This document shows positions 3,553 to 12,982 of a DNA stretch of 43,766 bases, one piece after another; the first letter of the stretch is position 1, and every line of letters begins with the position of its first letter. The notes beneath the pieces were generated by a model. It was not told the origin of the DNA and did not search any database. It saw nothing but the letters and a program-made list of their open reading frames with translations. This stretch comes from Euzebya rosea (lineage in GTDB: Bacteria; Actinomycetota; Nitriliruptoria; Euzebyales; Euzebyaceae), in NCBI RefSeq assembly GCF_003073135.1, contig NZ_PGDQ01000028.1:1-43766 (forward strand), in the 5' to 3' direction. A program made the position numbers and the translations under genes.

Positions 3553-4563
3553 GCAGCACGCTCCTTCAACTGGTCCCAGCACGTCTACAGGGTGGTTATA
3601 CCGCCGCGGTGCGACAACGGTCGGGAGTCGACCCGGCCGCATGGCCGCAAGTTCCGCGAGGGGCACTACGACAGTGAAGCCTTGGCCGCGGGGCGTTGCC
3701 GATGCCGGAACGCAAGAAGCCGGGCCACGCTCGGGTCCTTCCGGTGGCGGCCTACGGCAGGCCCGGGGTGCCGGGTGCTCGTCGGGCAAAGCGCCCCCAC
3801 GATGACAGCCGTCCAACCTTGTTGCACGCTGCAGCGGACGCCCCGATGTAAGGGCTGTCCGCACTTGGGTGGTCGGCCCGGCCGAGAGGTCCCCCGGGGG
3901 CCGCAGTCGGGAATGCAAGTCTGTGTGCTGTCGTTGTGGATCGAGTCGCTGCTGCTTGAGCTTCGGCTGGACGGGACGAGGCAGGCCAACTGAACCGAGG
4001 CAGGTTCACCGAGGACGTCGGTGTGTGTGCCGGCTCCTGTCCGGGAGTCGGTGCCTACAGCGTAGGGATCGTCACCGTACTCCGCGGGTGGGATGTCGCC
4101 GATGAGCCCGGATCCGGCCAACGTGCCGCACTGTGGTCAGGCCGGGTCGTGGCTGTCCATACTTGCCCGCGGACCGCGCCGGCTAAGCCCACCCGGCGCA
4201 CCAGCCGCTGGACGCGGGCAGTGTCTGATTGGAGGATCCCCTCCACGATGCAGCTGCTTCCAAACCTTCGGGGCGCCGTGACGCCGCGGCGGCCTGCCAA
4301 GAACGCCGGACATGGCCGCGCATAACCACGCCGGTGTGCTCCCGGAGAGGTCGCGGCGCCGCCCGGCTCGGGCCTCGGATTCCCCCGGCTCGCTTCAAGG
4401 ACGATGAGCCGGACATGCCGAGCATCACGACGCCGGCGCCACTACGCTGCGACACGGGTCCTCTTTGATGGTCTTGGCTCGTCCTTGATGCCGCAAACAT
4501 CAGGGGCTATCCCCATTCATCTTGGACCATCCGCCGGACCCCTCCATGAAGGAGACGCAGCAA
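3553..4563. other. 1-kb region without an intact gene
   Basis: No intact gene is convincing on either strand; the open frames are Arg/Pro/Ser-rich shadows. The only recognisable content is the IS3-type transposase remnant described separately at about 4105-4290. The last 100 bases must hold the promoter of the JmjC operon, but no clear -35/-10 pair stands out. Confidence 0.5.
4105..4290 (-). pseudogene. remnant of an IS3-family transposase (OrfB part)
   Basis: Reading the minus strand in two frames gives successive pieces of the region just before the DDE core of IS3-type OrfB. One frame reads RHGAPKVWKQLHRGG, like the usual YGARKVWRQL segment. After a frameshift another reads RVQRLVRRVGLAGAVRG followed by TTRPDHSAARWPD, like the usual RLMRELGL...RGKKVRTT.PDPAA.RPPDL text. 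No intact ORF, terminal repeats or DDE residues remain. It is a scar of an old insertion, consistent with a mobile-element setting. Boundaries are approximate. Confidence 0.6.
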
Positions 4564-5793
4564 ATGGGACGGAATAGCGCCAGCGTCGATCAAACTGCCT
4601 CAGGAGGGGCGAGCCTGGCATGGCTTCTTCACCCGGTCGATACGGGGATCTTTCTGCGTGAGTACTGGGATCAGAGGCCCCTGTTCATTGATAGGGGCAA
4701 TTCGCGGTACCACGACTCGTTGCCAGGATTGGCAGAAGTGGATGGACTGCTAAGCACCGGCGTGTATAGCGCAGATCGGCTGGATGGTCGTCTGATGCAG
4801 ACCGGCCCGGACGGCGCTGTTTCGCGGCGCGCCTTTAGTATCACTGCTGAGGGGCGTCTGGATCTTCACGATGTCTACGAGGCCTACGACAGCGGCTACA
4901 CCGTCATCCTAAACCGAATCGAGTCGCGGTCCGCGGTCCTCGGCGCACTCTGCCGTAGGTTGGAGGAGGACCTTAACCACAGAGTGGGTGCGAACCTCTA
5001 TTTGACCCCCGCGGGTACCCAAGGTGCTAACCCCCACATAGACAGTCACGACGTCCTCTTGGTTCAGATTCACGGTTCTAAGACATGGAGGGTGTCTGCG
5101 GAGAGCATCAAGCGGAATCGAGCGGGCGCCGATCCTGGTCAGCGGATCGAACTCGGCGAACATGACGAGTGGACCCTCGTCGAAGGTGATGCCCTCTACA
5201 TCCCGCACGGCTTCGTCCATGCGGGAGTCACGCACGATACGTCATCGTTGCACATCACCTTTGGTTTCAACGTATTGACGTGGGCGGACCTGCTAACCGA
5301 GACGCTGGACCGGATCGCTTCTTCCAGCGAAGAACTGCAGCGACCGTTGCCGCTAGGTCACCTCGGTAAGCCGATAGATGAGAACACCGTCACCATGTTG
5401 CAGAACCAACTCATCAGCGCACTCACAAAGGAGGAGTTGCGTGCAGCGCAGCTCTCCCTCGGTTCAAAGTTGCTGGCTCGACACACGTCCTCAACAGGGC
5501 ACTTTCCTTCGCTGGACGCCGTCGCCGCGTTGGACTTGGAGACACGGGTTGGCCGGGGGTTTGAAGGTCCCCATCGCTTCAGAGTCGCGGAAGAGCGTCT
5601 GACTTGCGAGTTTCCTGGGAACTTCGTGACCGTCCCCGCTTCCCTAGCGCCAGCGCTCCGGTATGCTCTCTCACGACCGACCTTCCGGGTAGGTGAGCTG
5701 CCAGGCGGCCTCTCTGAACGGCAAAGGATCGACTTCATCGCCAGGCTGATTCGTGACGGCCTGCTGGCGGTATTCGAGAGCGAAAGGGGTTAG
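4564..5793 (+). CDS. JmjC/cupin-type Fe(II)/2-oxoglutarate oxygenase, probable peptide hydroxylase
   Basis: I start at ATG 4564 because AAGGAG lies 9 nt upstream; earlier TTG and ATG codons lack a site. The 409-residue product has the Cupin_4/JmjC layout of YcfD and MINA53-like hydroxylases: a double-stranded beta helix at about 90-260, then a helical C-terminal domain. The iron site is visible as H158-x-D160 in NPHIDSHD and a distal His, probably H219, in IPHGFVHAG. IHGSKTWRV after the first motif matches the usual strand carrying the 2-oxoglutarate contact. The gene precedes the small peptide gene by 4 nt. Family members hydroxylate Arg, His or other residues in proteins, so a role on the peptide is likely. 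GC is clearly lower than in the chromosomal genes. Confidence 0.85.
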   Translation: MGRNSASVDQTASGGASLAWLLHPVDTGIFLREYWDQRPLFIDRGNSRYHDSLPGLAEVDGLLSTGVYSADRLDGRLMQTGPDGAVSRRAFSITAEGRLDLHDVYEAYDSGYTVILNRIESRSAVLGALCRRLEEDLNHRVGANLYLTPAGTQGANPHIDSHDVLLVQIHGSKTWRVSAESIKRNRAGADPGQRIELGEHDEWTLVEGDALYIPHGFVHAGVTHDTSSLHITFGFNVLTWADLLTETLDRIASSSEELQRPLPLGHLGKPIDENTVTMLQNQLISALTKEELRAAQLSLGSKLLARHTSSTGHFPSLDAVAALDLETRVGRGFEGPHRFRVAEERLTCEFPGNFVTVPASLAPALRYALSRPTFRVGELPGGLSERQRIDFIARLIRDGLLAVFESERG

Positions 5794-5797
5794 TGAT

Positions 5798-5983
5798 ATG
5801 AGTATCGAAACCAAGACAGAGGCCGAATTCGACGACGCGATCGCAGCGATCGAATCGCGGGTTGACCGGGCGCAGTCCGATCGTGTTGACTTCCCCCGTG
5901 CTGGGCTGGAACCATCGTTCGTACTGCAGCGTTCCAAGAACGTTGAGGATTGGGACGGCGACAACAGCGTTACCAAGGTTTAG
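5798..5983 (+). CDS. candidate RiPP precursor peptide, 61 residues
   Basis: ATG 5798 lies 4 nt after the JmjC stop with an AAAGGGG site 8 nt upstream. The product is acidic. Residues 1-30 (TEAEFDDAIAAIESRVDRAQ) should form a helix, like a leader peptide bound by modifying enzymes. From P40 the sequence changes to a less structured tail, SFVLQRSKNVEDWDGDN and then SVTKV, with Trp52, four Asp/Asn between 51 and 56, and no Cys. That excludes lanthionine chemistry and leaves Asp, Asn, Trp, Phe, Val, Arg or Lys as hydroxylation targets. There is no obvious GG or other protease site. It sits between two oxygenase genes on the same strand. Precursor assignment is inferred from size, layout and neighbours. 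Confidence 0.7.
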   Translation: MSIETKTEAEFDDAIAAIESRVDRAQSDRVDFPRAGLEPSFVLQRSKNVEDWDGDNSVTKV

Positions 5984-5998
5984 GCGGAAGTGCCCAAC

Positions 5999-7009
5999 AT
6001 GCCCTGGTCATTCCGGCCGGAACATGGCAGGGCCGTGCAACTGAGAAGCGGACTGGAACAGGAGTTGTACTCCAGTTTCATCAACCTCCTGGAGCGAGTT
6101 GAACTAGCTTTCCAGTTGCCGAGACATTCGTTGGCGCAGGTGGCTCCACTATCTTGTCGCGATTCTGCCATCCGACCGAGCTTATTTACGAGCCATTGGA
6201 TAATTGGAACCGCAGTCGAGTGTAATAGAACTGATGATTTGCTCCCAGCACTAAGAGAACTTCGGGGCGAGTCTTGCGTACCACTCGAGTTGGTGGTTTC
6301 AACGCGCTCAGACGACATGATTGATGCTGCAGCCCAAGAGTACATCGCGAGCGATGAGGGTCAGCGCAAGGCGCACTACGACAGCACTGGACTCCAACCT
6401 CTACCTGTGCATAGAGGCCTGACTGATTCCAACTTGACTGCTCTGCCACGGTTGGAGATCGATAACCTACGGGAACGGACTGCGGAGGCTCTCCACATCC
6501 TATCAGGTCTAGACCCTTCCCTGGTAGATGAAGTCCATCAGTACGTTCGACAGATCCGCTTCATCGGCAGTGACCGAATCGGTGGAATGAGCAGCGTCCG
6601 ATTCTTCGGCGTCGTTTATCTGCGTAGACCCAGTGCGATGCCGGGGACCTTCGAGGAACTCGTGGAGATCGTCAACGGCATCGTTCACGAGACTTCTCAT
6701 CTACATCTGCACGCTTTGATGGCGGCTGATCCACTCGTCCTCAACGTCAGCGACCGCTTCCCGTCGCCGCTAAGGAGAGATCACCGCCCGATGCTGGGCA
6801 TCTTCCACGCGACATTTGTGCTGGCGAGGCTGATGCATATTCTTGGCCTTTGGGTGGCGGCAGAACCAAACCGAGAAGACTTGGTTGCGGCTAGGTTGGA
6901 TGCCGAAACACGGCTGAGGAACGGGTTGACGACCGTCAGCGAGAACGGGGTCCTAACGCCACGGGGCGAGGAGGTCTTAGCAAGCATGGAGCAAGCGCTC
7001 CTTGCCTAG
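5999..7009 (+). CDS. stand-alone HExxH-domain peptide-modification protein
   Basis: I prefer ATG 5999 (AGGCGG 11 nt upstream) to GTG 5990, giving 336 residues. The key motif is H230-E-T-S-H234 in GIVHETSHLHLH, followed by RDHRPMLGIFHATFVLARL, where H270 may be the third ligand. This matches the HEXXH domain (TIGR04267-type) found alone or fused to radical SAM enzymes of the FxsB kind in peptide-modification loci. In fused radical SAM/HExxH enzymes this domain is a 2-oxoglutarate-dependent beta-hydroxylase rather than a peptidase. The N-terminal 150 residues match nothing I know; RSDDMIDAAAQEYIASDEG and a QPLPV segment recall the family. Third gene of the operon, 15 nt after the peptide; markedly AT-richer than the surroundings. 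Confidence 0.8.
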   Translation: MPWSFRPEHGRAVQLRSGLEQELYSSFINLLERVELAFQLPRHSLAQVAPLSCRDSAIRPSLFTSHWIIGTAVECNRTDDLLPALRELRGESCVPLELVVSTRSDDMIDAAAQEYIASDEGQRKAHYDSTGLQPLPVHRGLTDSNLTALPRLEIDNLRERTAEALHILSGLDPSLVDEVHQYVRQIRFIGSDRIGGMSSVRFFGVVYLRRPSAMPGTFEELVEIVNGIVHETSHLHLHALMAADPLVLNVSDRFPSPLRRDHRPMLGIFHATFVLARLMHILGLWVAAEPNREDLVAARLDAETRLRNGLTTVSENGVLTPRGEEVLASMEQALLA

Positions 7010-7343: not shown

Positions 7344-9224
7344 CTAGCTAGCGAGAAGGAAAGTATGTGCCCGCGAGCGCGAGATTCTGGGATCGGTCTC
7401 GCGCCAGTGCCGCCGCGATGTCGATGACCCTGTCCGTTGACCGAGCCCCCGGGTGGTTGGCGTCTGGATCATATGGCTCAGCGTGTGCTGTCCGATGCAC
7501 GCGAACTGCTCGGTGATGCCGGGAGAGCATGACGTAGACGAACTGGCGGTAGGCCGTGTCGTCGACGAGCACGTGGGAGGTGTCGACGGTCCTGCCCTGG
7601 GCCTTTGGACGGTCGTGGCGTAGGCGTGGGCAAGGCCCCCGTTCTCCATGTAGTCGACCGGTAGCACGATGGCCTGGCCGTGGGCGTCGGTGGCGTGCAC
7701 CTCGTCCGGGGTGATGGCGTCGATGGTGGCGATGGTGCCGTTGAGTACCCCAAGCAGGCGGTTGTTGCGCAGGCACAGGATCTGGTCGCCGACGCGGTAC
7801 CCGGTGCCGCCGATGATCGTTTCTGGGCCGTACAGCGCTCCGGCCTCGTCCAGTCGTTCACGGGCGTGGGCGTTGAGGCGGTCGACTTGGTCTTGGCGGC
7901 CGGCGAGCATGGTTGTGGATAGGCCGACCCTGCGGTCATTCCACCAGCCTTGGACGACTGCGGCGACGGCCTGATCCGACGTGTCGTGGACGGTGTACCG
8001 CTCTGGCTGGGTGAAGTGGGCGAGGGCGACCGCGTCGTTGTGGTCGCGGATGGCGTTGACGGCGGCTCGTTCGGCGGGGTCCTGCTGCCGCCGGTTCGTG
8101 ACGAGCTCCACGGTGTGGGAGTGGCGAGTGAGTGCGCGGAAAAAGCCGCCGGCGTCGATTTCGGGGAGCTGATGGTGGTCGCCGACCAGGATCAGGCGGG
8201 CGCCGACGGCGGCGGTGTGATCGATGAGGCGGGCGAGCTTGCGGGTTCCGATCATGGCGGCTTCGTCGATGACGATGACGTCGTTGTGCCGCAGAGGGTT
8301 GGTGTCAAGCTCGGCGAGGAGCCCGTCGACCGAGGCTGCGGCCATCCCCGTTTCCTCACCCAACTGCTGGGCCGTTCGTGCGGCCAAGGCGGCTCCCATG
8401 ACAGTGCACCCTGCGGCTCGCCAGAGCGGGACTGCGGCGGCGAGGGCGGTGGTCTTGCCGGCGCCGGCGCGACCGACCACGACCTGCACACCCTCAGTGC
8501 CCGTGGTGATCTGGCGCACCATCCGGGCCTGTTCCTCAGCGAGGAACTGCTGGGCTGTGAGGACGCGATCGACGTGGGTGGGCTCGCAGCTCACCGTGGC
8601 CACGGCGGTCGACGCCTGCTCCAGGGCCCGTCGTTCGGTCTCCAGCAGATCGTGGGTCGAGTAGACGGTCTCGGTGCTCCCTGCCTCTCGGTGAGGACGG
8701 AGACCGGCCGGGGCGCCCGCCACGGTGAGGTCGGATCGGACCTCCAACTGTCGGGCCCGTCGGCGGGCCCTCCAGGTCAGCACGCCGACGGGGTCGCGGA
8801 CTCCGTCCAAGGACTCGGCCAGCAGCTCGTTGGCGAGCTCGTCGGGGCGCGTCTCCGTGTTGGTGAGGATGCGCGACACGATGCCCCGCAGGGGCTGGCT
8901 CTCGTCGGCCGGGACTCCGGCCGCTGCCGCCAGGCGGGCCAGGGCCCGGTCGACGTCGGAGGAGACCGGGGAGGTGGGGGCGGGTTGGGAGAGCATGACG
9001 GCGACCCCCGCTTCGCTGTCGAGCGTTGCGTCGGTGAGACGCTCCAGCGTCTCAAGCGGGGCGCCTCGGGGCAGCCGGTCGCACCAGGCGCGGACGACGT
9101 CACGGCGGCGGAAGGTCGAGGTGCGTTCCGTCAATCCGTTGGGACCGCCCAGCGCCAGCATGACTTGGTCGGCGTCGATGTCATCGAGCTCCCGGCGATG
9201 GTCTTGGAACAGCAGCCGCCCCAC
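7344..9224 (-). pseudogene. helicase half of a broken MobF-type relaxase/helicase
   Basis: This 626-codon frame holds the RecD/TraI-like superfamily 1 helicase part: Walker A GRAGAGKTT, Walker B VIVIDEAAM, then ILVGDHHQLPEIDAGG and RQQDPAE. Near its end the text reads AHAYATTV, then QRPRAG, where the family has HKAQG. The frame +1 reads KAQGRTVDTSHVLVDD and ends AGTYFPSR at 7348, so one base was lost around 7604-7608 and the natural C-terminus is in the other frame. The N-terminal side also starts out of frame with the relaxase part, because of the 8-bp duplication at 9307-9322. The original product, about 920 residues, would nick and unwind DNA for conjugative transfer. It is now almost certainly non-functional unless the frameshifts are sequencing errors. 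Confidence 0.85.
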
Positions 9225-9274
9225 GCGATCAGGACCGAAGTCGATGGCTTCCGCGCGGCTGGTCCAGCGATCGT

Positions 9275-10117
9275 TCAGCGTCGCGGCGCTGACGCCGTAC
9301 TCCTTGCGTTGCCGCGTTGCCGCGTGGCCAGGGTGGCGACCTGGGCGGCCTTCGCGGAGGAGTGCCCGGTCGCGTCGAGTGCGGCGAGGATGTCGGCGCG
9401 ACGGCGGGAGAAGTGCTCAATGACCTCTCGCGGAACGCCCTGTAGGTCGGCGGCGCCGTTGACCACTGGCTGCCATGCCACCCCGAGGGCGGACGTGAGC
9501 TCGTGGCGGAGCACCGCTTGGTAGACGAAGCCGGCGGTCTTGGAGTGGGTGTAGAGCAGCCGGCCGTTGAGGGTGCGCCAGCGGTCGTCGTCGGGGGTGT
9601 GGGCGAGGTTGGCGACCAGCACGTGGCTGTGCAGCAGCGGGTCGCCGGCGCGGGAGGTGCGGTGGCGGAACACCGCGGCGACGGCGCCGTCGGCCTCGAC
9701 GTGATCGACCCCGTTGGTGCCGCGGCGGGTGCCGATCGCGTGTCGCTCGAGGAACTCCAACGCGGTGGCGACCGCCCGGTCGTGACACGCCCGCACCTCC
9801 TCGGCCACGTCGGGCGTGCTCAGCGCCCACAGCAGCGACACCGACTTGGGGGCTCGGAAGGTCAGGTCGAAGCCTGGGAGCCGCGGCCCCCCGAACCCGC
9901 GGAGGAGCTTGTCGCCAGTTCGGGGATGGACGCCGGCCAGGACGGCCTCCAGGTCCGACGCGGTGACCCGACCCGACACGCCGAGCCGCGACGCGGCGTT
10001 GCCCGTCCACCAGCCGGGCGCCTCGCCCGCGCCGAGGTAGTAGTCCTCGACCCCGGAGGCGACGACCTCGAGGTAGTACTCCCCGCCGTTGACGGCGAGC
10101 TTGCCGATGTTCAGCAC
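9275..10117 (-). pseudogene. TrwC-type relaxase half of the broken relaxase/helicase
   Basis: The 280-codon frame begins MLNIGKLAVNGGEYYLEVV and carries the MobF relaxase domain: N-terminal tyrosines (YYLEVV, DYYLG) for strand cleavage, the FDLTFRAPKSVSLLWAL segment, and the metal-binding histidines around LLHSHVLVAN and the nearby helix. It breaks after VATLATRQR. There the sequence carries two copies of an 8-bp unit; removing one restores KEYGVSAATLNDRW and continuous reading into the helicase half. The winged-helix gene lies 40 nt upstream on the same strand, a layout I associate with actinobacterial integrative elements. The loss of the gene suggests the element can no longer mobilise itself. 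Confidence 0.85.
9307..9322. repeat. 8-bp tandem duplication that frameshifts the relaxase
   Basis: CGTTGCCG occurs twice in tandem (9307-9314 and 9315-9322). Deleting one unit joins the relaxase and helicase frames into the expected family sequence, so this is most simply a replication-slippage duplication in a formerly intact gene. Confidence 0.85.
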
Positions 10118-11447: not shown

Positions 11448-11629
11448 GACGCCTCGTCGGCGGCGAGCGCCAGGTTCGCGGCCAGCGCCAACGCCTCGGA
11501 CGGCAGCAGCGACACGACACCGTCGCGACGGGTGTCGAGGACCACCTCGCCGCGCTCTCCGACGACCACCGACGGCACCTCACGGGCACCCCCGAGGGCA
11601 GCGCCGACGAACCCCTCCATGCCCCTCAT
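11420..11629 (-). CDS. small conserved element protein
   Basis: The 69-residue frame starts best at ATG 11629, where GGGGGTG lies a few bases upstream; ATG 11653 is possible but lacks a site. The product reads FVGAALGG, then VVVGERGEVVLDTRRDGVV, then LLPSEALALAANLALAADEA, a beta hairpin followed by a helix. It overlaps the winged-helix gene downstream by 28 nt, so they share an operon. A diverged second copy of its middle, 12863-12950, differs mainly at third codon positions, which supports real coding and conservation. Function unknown; a small regulator or partner of the winged-helix protein would fit. Confidence 0.65.
   Translation of the reverse strand: MRGMEGFVGAALGGAREVPSVVVGERGEVVLDTRRDGVVSLLPSEALALAANLALAADEASCGAARFPS
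11467..11554. repeat. 88-bp direct repeat, copy 1 (inside the small element gene)
   Basis: By eye this matches 12863-12950 at 82 of 88 positions, without gaps. Copy 1 lies inside the element and copy 2 outside its tRNA-derived border. Confidence 0.9.
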
Positions 11630-12852: not shown

Positions 12853-12862
12853 CTCACCTCGC

Positions 12863-12950
12863 GCGCCAGGTTCGCGGCCAGCGCCAACGCCTCGGACGGC
12901 AGCAGCGCGACGACGCCCTCGCGGCGGGTGTCGAGGACCACCTCGCCACG
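12863..12950 (-). pseudogene. diverged fragment of the small element gene, copy 2
   Basis: The minus strand reads GEVVLDTRREGVVALLPSEA followed by LALAANLARE, homologous to the product of 11420-11629. Six differences lie in 88 bp and most are silent, so the copies diverged as coding sequences and do not come from a fresh local duplication. It has no start codon or flanking partner genes. It looks like the scar of a second, related element or of an earlier border. Confidence 0.65.
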
Positions 12951-12982
12951 CGGTTCGCCCGGGCGCCCCGTCGGCGGGCGTC

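Follow-up and report, generated by a model that had tools for sequence, protein, structure and literature searches.

Among described systems, the one closest to the locus considered here is the biphenomycin (bip/bpm) pathway, in which the JmjC protein BipG, an Orn γ-hydroxylase, and the αKG-HExxH protein BipH, a β-hydroxylase adding a further hydroxyl, both hydroxylate one precursor (PMC12707348; PMC12257519). Other αKG-HExxH enzymes display related activities on peptides: PesO is a peptide oxygenase that hydroxylates Pro (PMC13060819), while PflC and PosC hydroxylate Gln and cut the backbone oxidatively on Gln-ARMD precursors, with PflC also hydrolysing when the leader is missing (PMC12636437). 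The two enzyme families also occur together in Pantoea sp. Mb-10 (L087:6237-14134) and Salmonella arizonae (L088:6400-14332), where a cluster with a peptide ending in ELLLATHRC encodes, in addition to that peptide, a cupin/JmjC protein, an SBP_bac_5 protein, a ThiF (MccB-like) protein, an αKG-HExxH protein, a second cupin/JmjC protein, an MFS transporter and an ABC-F protein. The set resembles a RiPP cluster in which a ThiF-type adenylating enzyme is combined with two kinds of 2OG oxygenase. The pairing of a JmjC with an αKG-HExxH enzyme in one RiPP cluster is already published. The original prediction for the present locus cited no described class defined by this pair without a ring-forming enzyme, but the pair itself has precedents in both BipG/BipH and the Pantoea/Salmonella arizonae set.

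Here we describe a further occurrence of the pair in Euzebya rosea, within a 43,766-nt stretch of contig NZ_PGDQ01000028.1 (henceforth, the window). We assign a probability of about 0.62 to the reading that it constitutes a minimal RiPP-type operon on a mobile element, in which a single peptide is oxidised by two Fe(II)/2OG oxygenases that are unrelated to each other. The features on which this reading draws are:

4549..4554, + strand: AAGGAG, probable ribosome-binding site of the JmjC gene, read from the sequence
4564..5793, + strand: P0001, JmjC_2 (PF08007) gene with an ATG start, 409 aa, Pfam E=1.1e-26
5782..5789, + strand: GAAAGGGG, probable ribosome-binding site of the peptide gene, 8 nt upstream of it, read from the sequence
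5798..5983, + strand: P0003, candidate precursor peptide of 61 aa, MSIETKTEAEFDDAIAAIESRVDRAQSDRVDFPRAGLEPSFVLQRSKNVEDWDGDNSVTKV, recognised from its ORF, ribosome-binding site and codon-position GC
5990..7009, + strand: P0002, predicted stand-alone αKG-HExxH gene, 336-339 aa, starting at ATG 5999 or GTG 5990, with a TIGR04267 match
7347-9224, - strand: TraI-like helicase part, AAA_30 E=5.4e-50
9278-10117, - strand: TrwC/MOBF relaxase, Pfam PF08751 E=5.6e-81

The three genes in 4564-7009 of the window are encoded on the same (+) strand in the order JmjC protein, 61-residue peptide and HExxH protein, with a 4-nt gap between the JmjC stop and the peptide ORF, and a 15-nt gap between the peptide stop and the HExxH ATG (5999). 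All three frames are intact and a plausible ribosome-binding site precedes each of the three starts. The codon-position GC of the peptide ORF (0.64/0.41/0.67) resembles that of the flanking genes (0.65/0.47/0.68 and 0.64/0.43/0.61); given this pattern and its ribosome-binding site, we take 5798-5983 to be a probable genuine coding gene. The operon has a GC content of 56-59%, as against about 71% around it (69-75% across the greater part of the window beyond 8 kb). The gene order, spacing, shared strand and AT-richness relative to the surroundings that were originally noted are thus all borne out by the ORF coordinates and GC values. A Pfam scan of the 10 ORFs between 0 and 14 kb recovered no radical SAM domain, and none of these neighbouring ORFs encodes an MNIO, arginase, B12 radical SAM or TldD protein. 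Likewise, neither the low-GC stretch nor the scanned neighbors of the operon contained a recognisable gene for a protease, a transporter or immunity.

P0002 matches TIGR04267 with 76.2 bits (curated cut-off 40) and has neither a Pfam match nor a radical SAM domain, upholding the original description of a TIGR04267-type HExxH protein free of radical SAM, with no such domain in the 10 scanned ORFs either. A family alignment of 46 sequences reveals an invariant H233-E234-x-x-H237 motif along with P260, R262, R266 and H273, and H233, E234, H237, R262, R266 and H273 are also aligned in ChlH. A profile built from 46 relatives recovers ChlH and SjiH as the only relatives in the PDB. The AlphaFold2 model of P0002 (mean pLDDT 89.6, pTM 0.91) superposes on ChlH (8s5f) with Z 28.0 over 304 aligned positions and on SjiH (22ob) with Z 24.3 over 296, and the next-best fold match, proteases included, is at Z 5.9. 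The candidate identity of a zinc protease was rejected on this comparison, with whole-chain Z-scores of 28 and 24 for the αKG oxygenases versus about 5 for proteases. Given the TIGR04267 score, the fold match to ChlH and SjiH and the invariant catalytic residues, we conclude that P0002 is a predicted αKG-HExxH oxygenase over its whole length.

The relatives of P0002 were surveyed by an alignment-based scan of 84,980 genomes, which yielded 72 HExxH loci and relies on one conserved peptide pattern that distant cases may escape. A single-sequence search with P0002 of the same 84,980 genomes recovered no confirmed relatives, nor did a scan of viral contigs. Most loci inspected have a short ORF immediately before the stand-alone HExxH gene, and at 24 of 74 loci this ORF contains an LDxSKLLG-like leader motif (0.8 expected from shuffled peptides). 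Recurrent partners across the 72 loci include a YcaO-like protein (eight loci; above the Pfam cut-off at L047 and L053 and below it at L048), MFS transporters and an AhpD-like protein. In the phylogenetic tree, P0002 groups on a long branch with actinobacterial members, most of which adjoin YcaO-like genes. A JmjC protein like P0001 adjoins the HExxH gene in none of the 72 loci (0/72), and among the TIGR04267-positive genomes of the phylum the only neighboring JmjC gene is that of the window itself. The original prediction had staked itself on the JmjC, peptide and HExxH genes occurring together elsewhere, and in this it fell short: no second copy of the triad turned up in the genomes searched. 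The low-GC three-gene set, which lacks ring-forming, MNIO and radical SAM enzymes, is for now a singleton.

Several of the HExxH loci have organizations of their own. In Streptomyces sp. B-S-A12 (L049:9953-12048), a short peptide gene (MENNEIQAEQVEAVEQAEITFGEIPESYLSHSSQLMQAD) precedes a tandem pair of stand-alone HExxH genes, and genes for a YcaO-like protein, a methyltransferase and an MFS transporter come next. Pseudarthrobacter sulfonivorans (L048:8046-12827) presents, in a row, genes for a PhyH-type 2OG oxygenase, a methyltransferase, a 35-aa peptide, an HExxH protein, a YcaO-like protein and an MFS transporter, making it a possible further two-oxygenase peptide cluster. Aminoacyl-tRNA synthetase genes lie close to the HExxH clusters at L044, L051 and L052, and also at L089 and L109, with MetRS directly behind the YcaO-like gene in L051 and L052, ValRS adjoining L044 and IleRS near L089/L109; these could be self-resistance copies or chance neighbors.

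The closest solved structures to P0001 are MINA53 (E=1e-22), NO66 (E=8e-21) and YcfD (E=1e-9), and the scores of P0001 and P0002 alike lie well outside the range of chance. Its iron ligands H158-x-D160...H219 make up the HxD...H motif, and K173, whose counterpart in the MINA53 alignment is the GxK lysine, is the putative 2OG lysine; all four residues (H158, D160, K173, H219) are invariant across 38 relatives. P0001 thus possesses both the HxD...H ligands and the 2OG lysine that mark JmjC Fe(II)/2OG oxygenases, and is a predicted member of this class with its catalytic residues kept, in agreement with the original assignment, to which the PF08007 match also lends support. Many homologs at 27-37% identity were recovered on searching relatives and the phylum, and we read the flanking DNA around the homologs of P0001 at 32 actinobacterial JmjC loci (among them L009-L026, L123-L127 and L129-L134; e.g., L021:789-1067 and L025:1268-1489). 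About 28 of the 32 have a peptide gene of 55-113 codons directly upstream of the JmjC gene, and 29 of the 32 a gene for a Suc_Fer-like ferredoxin directly downstream, defining a conserved order of leader-plus-repeat peptide, JmjC_2 and Suc_Fer-like ferredoxin. The encoded peptides display a short LxDEDIETV leader followed by Asp/Gly-rich repeats (or GGSNPEGHDGGADG repeats), and no family model matches them. As we also found no publication on this gene set in the open-access literature searched, it may represent an undescribed JmjC-modified peptide family. A profile of this peptide-adjacent family matches P0001 over its full length with 282 bits. Together with the neighboring peptide genes, this fit suggests that P0001 comes from a family apparently devoted to small peptides. 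Other relatives of P0001 occur in peptide-like settings, e.g., in Streptomyces clavuligerus alongside a 48-aa gene, a peptidase and an ABC transporter. The αKG-HExxH and P0001-type JmjC families both look peptide-directed.

P0003 presents the RiPP hallmark of a short precursor gene beside modifying-enzyme genes, the 61-aa ORF lying between the two oxygenase genes. Its C-terminal part (FVLQRSKNVEDWDGDNSVTKV) contains several Asp, Asn and Gln residues, i.e., types that such enzymes oxidise in known systems, and within it lies an Asp/Trp/Asn-rich stretch (VEDWDGDNSVTKV). No homolog beyond chance-level matches was recovered from 101 genomes or 72,556 plasmids. The comparison of small ORFs put forward with the original prediction did not bear out a relationship, in that P0003 resembles the other HExxH-associated peptides no better than shuffles do, and neither a leader nor a core of P0003 is conserved in related clusters. 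Two specific candidates were likewise rejected: a core motif shared with the Bacteroidota peptides of L054 and L057 (RSMETYEGE) scored no higher in alignment than shuffled sequences did (p about 0.3), and the leader of the JmjC-associated peptides scored 0.8 in a PSSM search, against 17.7-29.9 for members, with 98% of shuffles scoring as high. Having no homolog, no likeness to HExxH-associated peptides and no JmjC-family leader, P0003 fits no known precursor family.

The operon is flanked on one side by a gene for a dgt-like HD-domain phosphohydrolase and on the other by the TrwC/MOBF relaxase, and thereby adjoins mobile-element genes. The relaxase region (7344-10117, - strand) reads as two ORFs, the TrwC relaxase and the helicase part, about 50 nt apart, possibly owing to a frameshift or a split gene; these are neighboring mobile-element genes that lie outside the peptide pathway. 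Further along the window, a 92-nt direct repeat (11464-11555 and 12860-12951; 92% identical) overlaps a small ORF and might mark a duplicated mobile-element gene. No tRNA was found within the window. The HExxH gene was not recovered from any of the 100 relatives searched, which include three congeners, and the JmjC gene is likewise missing from those three; that neither enzyme gene was found in the three congeneric genomes searched argues against a housekeeping function.

In the proposed mechanism, P0003 (5798-5983) would be the precursor peptide and the substrate of both enzymes, with P0001 and P0002 each oxidising its side chains using Fe(II), O2 and 2OG. The simplest chemistry would be β- or γ-hydroxylation of residues in the C-terminal part containing VEDWDGDNSVTKV. 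The N-terminal acidic helical part would probably serve as the leader, and later cleavage and export would be carried out by enzymes encoded elsewhere. The hydroxylation of P0003, the residues that would be modified and the order of the steps are inferred. This mechanism is held to be the most likely one, and the joint action of BipG and BipH on one precursor is a precedent for it. The RiPP-like character originally attributed to the locus is well founded in respect of the enzymes, given the whole-length αKG-HExxH membership of P0002 and a JmjC family that normally occurs beside a leader-plus-repeat peptide. More tentatively, and with the odds lying against it, the operon might exemplify a RiPP type in which a single linear precursor is acted on by a JmjC and an αKG-HExxH enzyme but by none of the ring-forming, MNIO or radical SAM kind, and which arose on a mobile element by recombining a JmjC gene of the peptide-JmjC-Suc_Fer lineage with an HExxH gene.

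The doubly hydroxylated product that was originally envisaged is only one possible outcome, as oxidative cleavage of the backbone is also within the reach of αKG-HExxH enzymes (PMC12636437). P0002 might thus hydroxylate P0003 and then cut it oxidatively (or hydrolytically where a proper leader is wanting), releasing an amidated fragment, while P0001 hydroxylates another residue, in which case a separate protease would be needless. This would accord with the lack of an evident protease gene near the operon, and both PflC and PosC act in this way on Gln-ARMD precursors, with PflC hydrolysing when no leader is present (PMC12636437). However, P0003 has neither a Gln run nor an ARMD motif, and cutting is known from one αKG-HExxH sub-group only, the other characterised members being hydroxylases, making this course an improbable one. 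We hold it equally doubtful that a single oxygenase acts on P0003, with the other being a passenger that targets a cellular protein, e.g., by hydroxylating a ribosomal protein in the manner of YcfD, MINA53 and NO66. P0001 does align with MINA53, NO66 and YcfD, P0003 is devoid of the JmjC-peptide leader motif, and the Suc_Fer partner is missing, with no match to a Suc_Fer-like gene in six frames of the whole window. Yet the P0001 gene lies only 4 nt from the peptide gene, and the profile of the peptide-adjacent family that gives P0001 its 282 bits gives 67 bits for the one ribosomal-oxygenase-type JmjC protein compared, that of Morganella. A ribosomal oxygenase identity for P0001 is less likely on the strength of this difference and of its absence from the three congeners, which is unlike a core ribosome modifier. 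In the Pfam scan, PF20514 (ROXA-like_wH) is present in the Morganella homolog, whereas P0001 has JmjC_2 with no PF20514 reported.

The remaining alternative, that 5798-5983 encodes a small protein acting as a partner or regulator rather than a substrate, or that the operon is what decay has left of a larger cluster that the mobile element moved, appears very unlikely. P0003 having no homolog, the lack of a transporter or protease and the neighboring relaxase being in two pieces would be in keeping with it, but all three reading frames are uninterrupted, have ribosome-binding sites and show the base composition of coding DNA, and neither P0001 nor P0002 has lost its catalytic residues.

If P0003 is modified as proposed, the operon would offer a system of only three genes in which to study the sharing of one short substrate by two unrelated Fe(II)/2OG oxygenases, free of the cross-linking enzymes that complicate biphenomycin. 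Beyond this locus, the Asp-rich repeat peptide/JmjC/Suc_Fer clusters suggest that many bacterial JmjC proteins annotated as "cupin" or "ribosomal oxygenase" act on dedicated small peptides. None of the genomes or open-access papers searched contained the stripped-down combination of the pair and one peptide, free of ring-forming, MNIO and radical SAM enzymes, its absence from the literature being weak evidence. The locus nevertheless shares elements with each of several known systems. P0001 belongs to the same family as the JmjC proteins of the peptide-JmjC-Suc_Fer clusters (31-37% identity, full length) and is likewise encoded beside a short peptide gene; however, their peptide gene lies 5' of the JmjC gene whereas that of P0003 lies 3' of P0001, their peptides have the LxDEDIETV leader and Asp/Gly repeats while P0003 has neither, and the gene that follows is for Suc_Fer there and for the HExxH protein here. 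P0002 shares the TIGR04267 model, whole-chain fold and catalytic residues with ChlH, SjiH, PflC/PosC and PesO, and is stand-alone like PflC and PesO; unlike ChlH it carries no radical SAM domain, and whereas the known stand-alone αKG-HExxH enzymes are paired with an MNIO, its only partner is the JmjC protein. As in the Pantoea/Salmonella arizonae cluster, a cupin/JmjC and a stand-alone αKG-HExxH gene are placed around a short peptide gene, with radical SAM and MNIO genes absent from the genes read there too, but that cluster has Cupin_8-type cupins, the ThiF (MccB-like) protein, and export and probable immunity genes. Biphenomycin needs an MNIO with its partner, an arginase, a B12 radical SAM cross-linker, a TldD protease and an MFS transporter, none of which was recognised near 4564-7009, and its precursor has an FRF core that is absent from P0003; what the two have in common is one JmjC and one αKG-HExxH enzyme encoded in one operon, a pair that in biphenomycin is listed next to each other and hydroxylates the same precursor.
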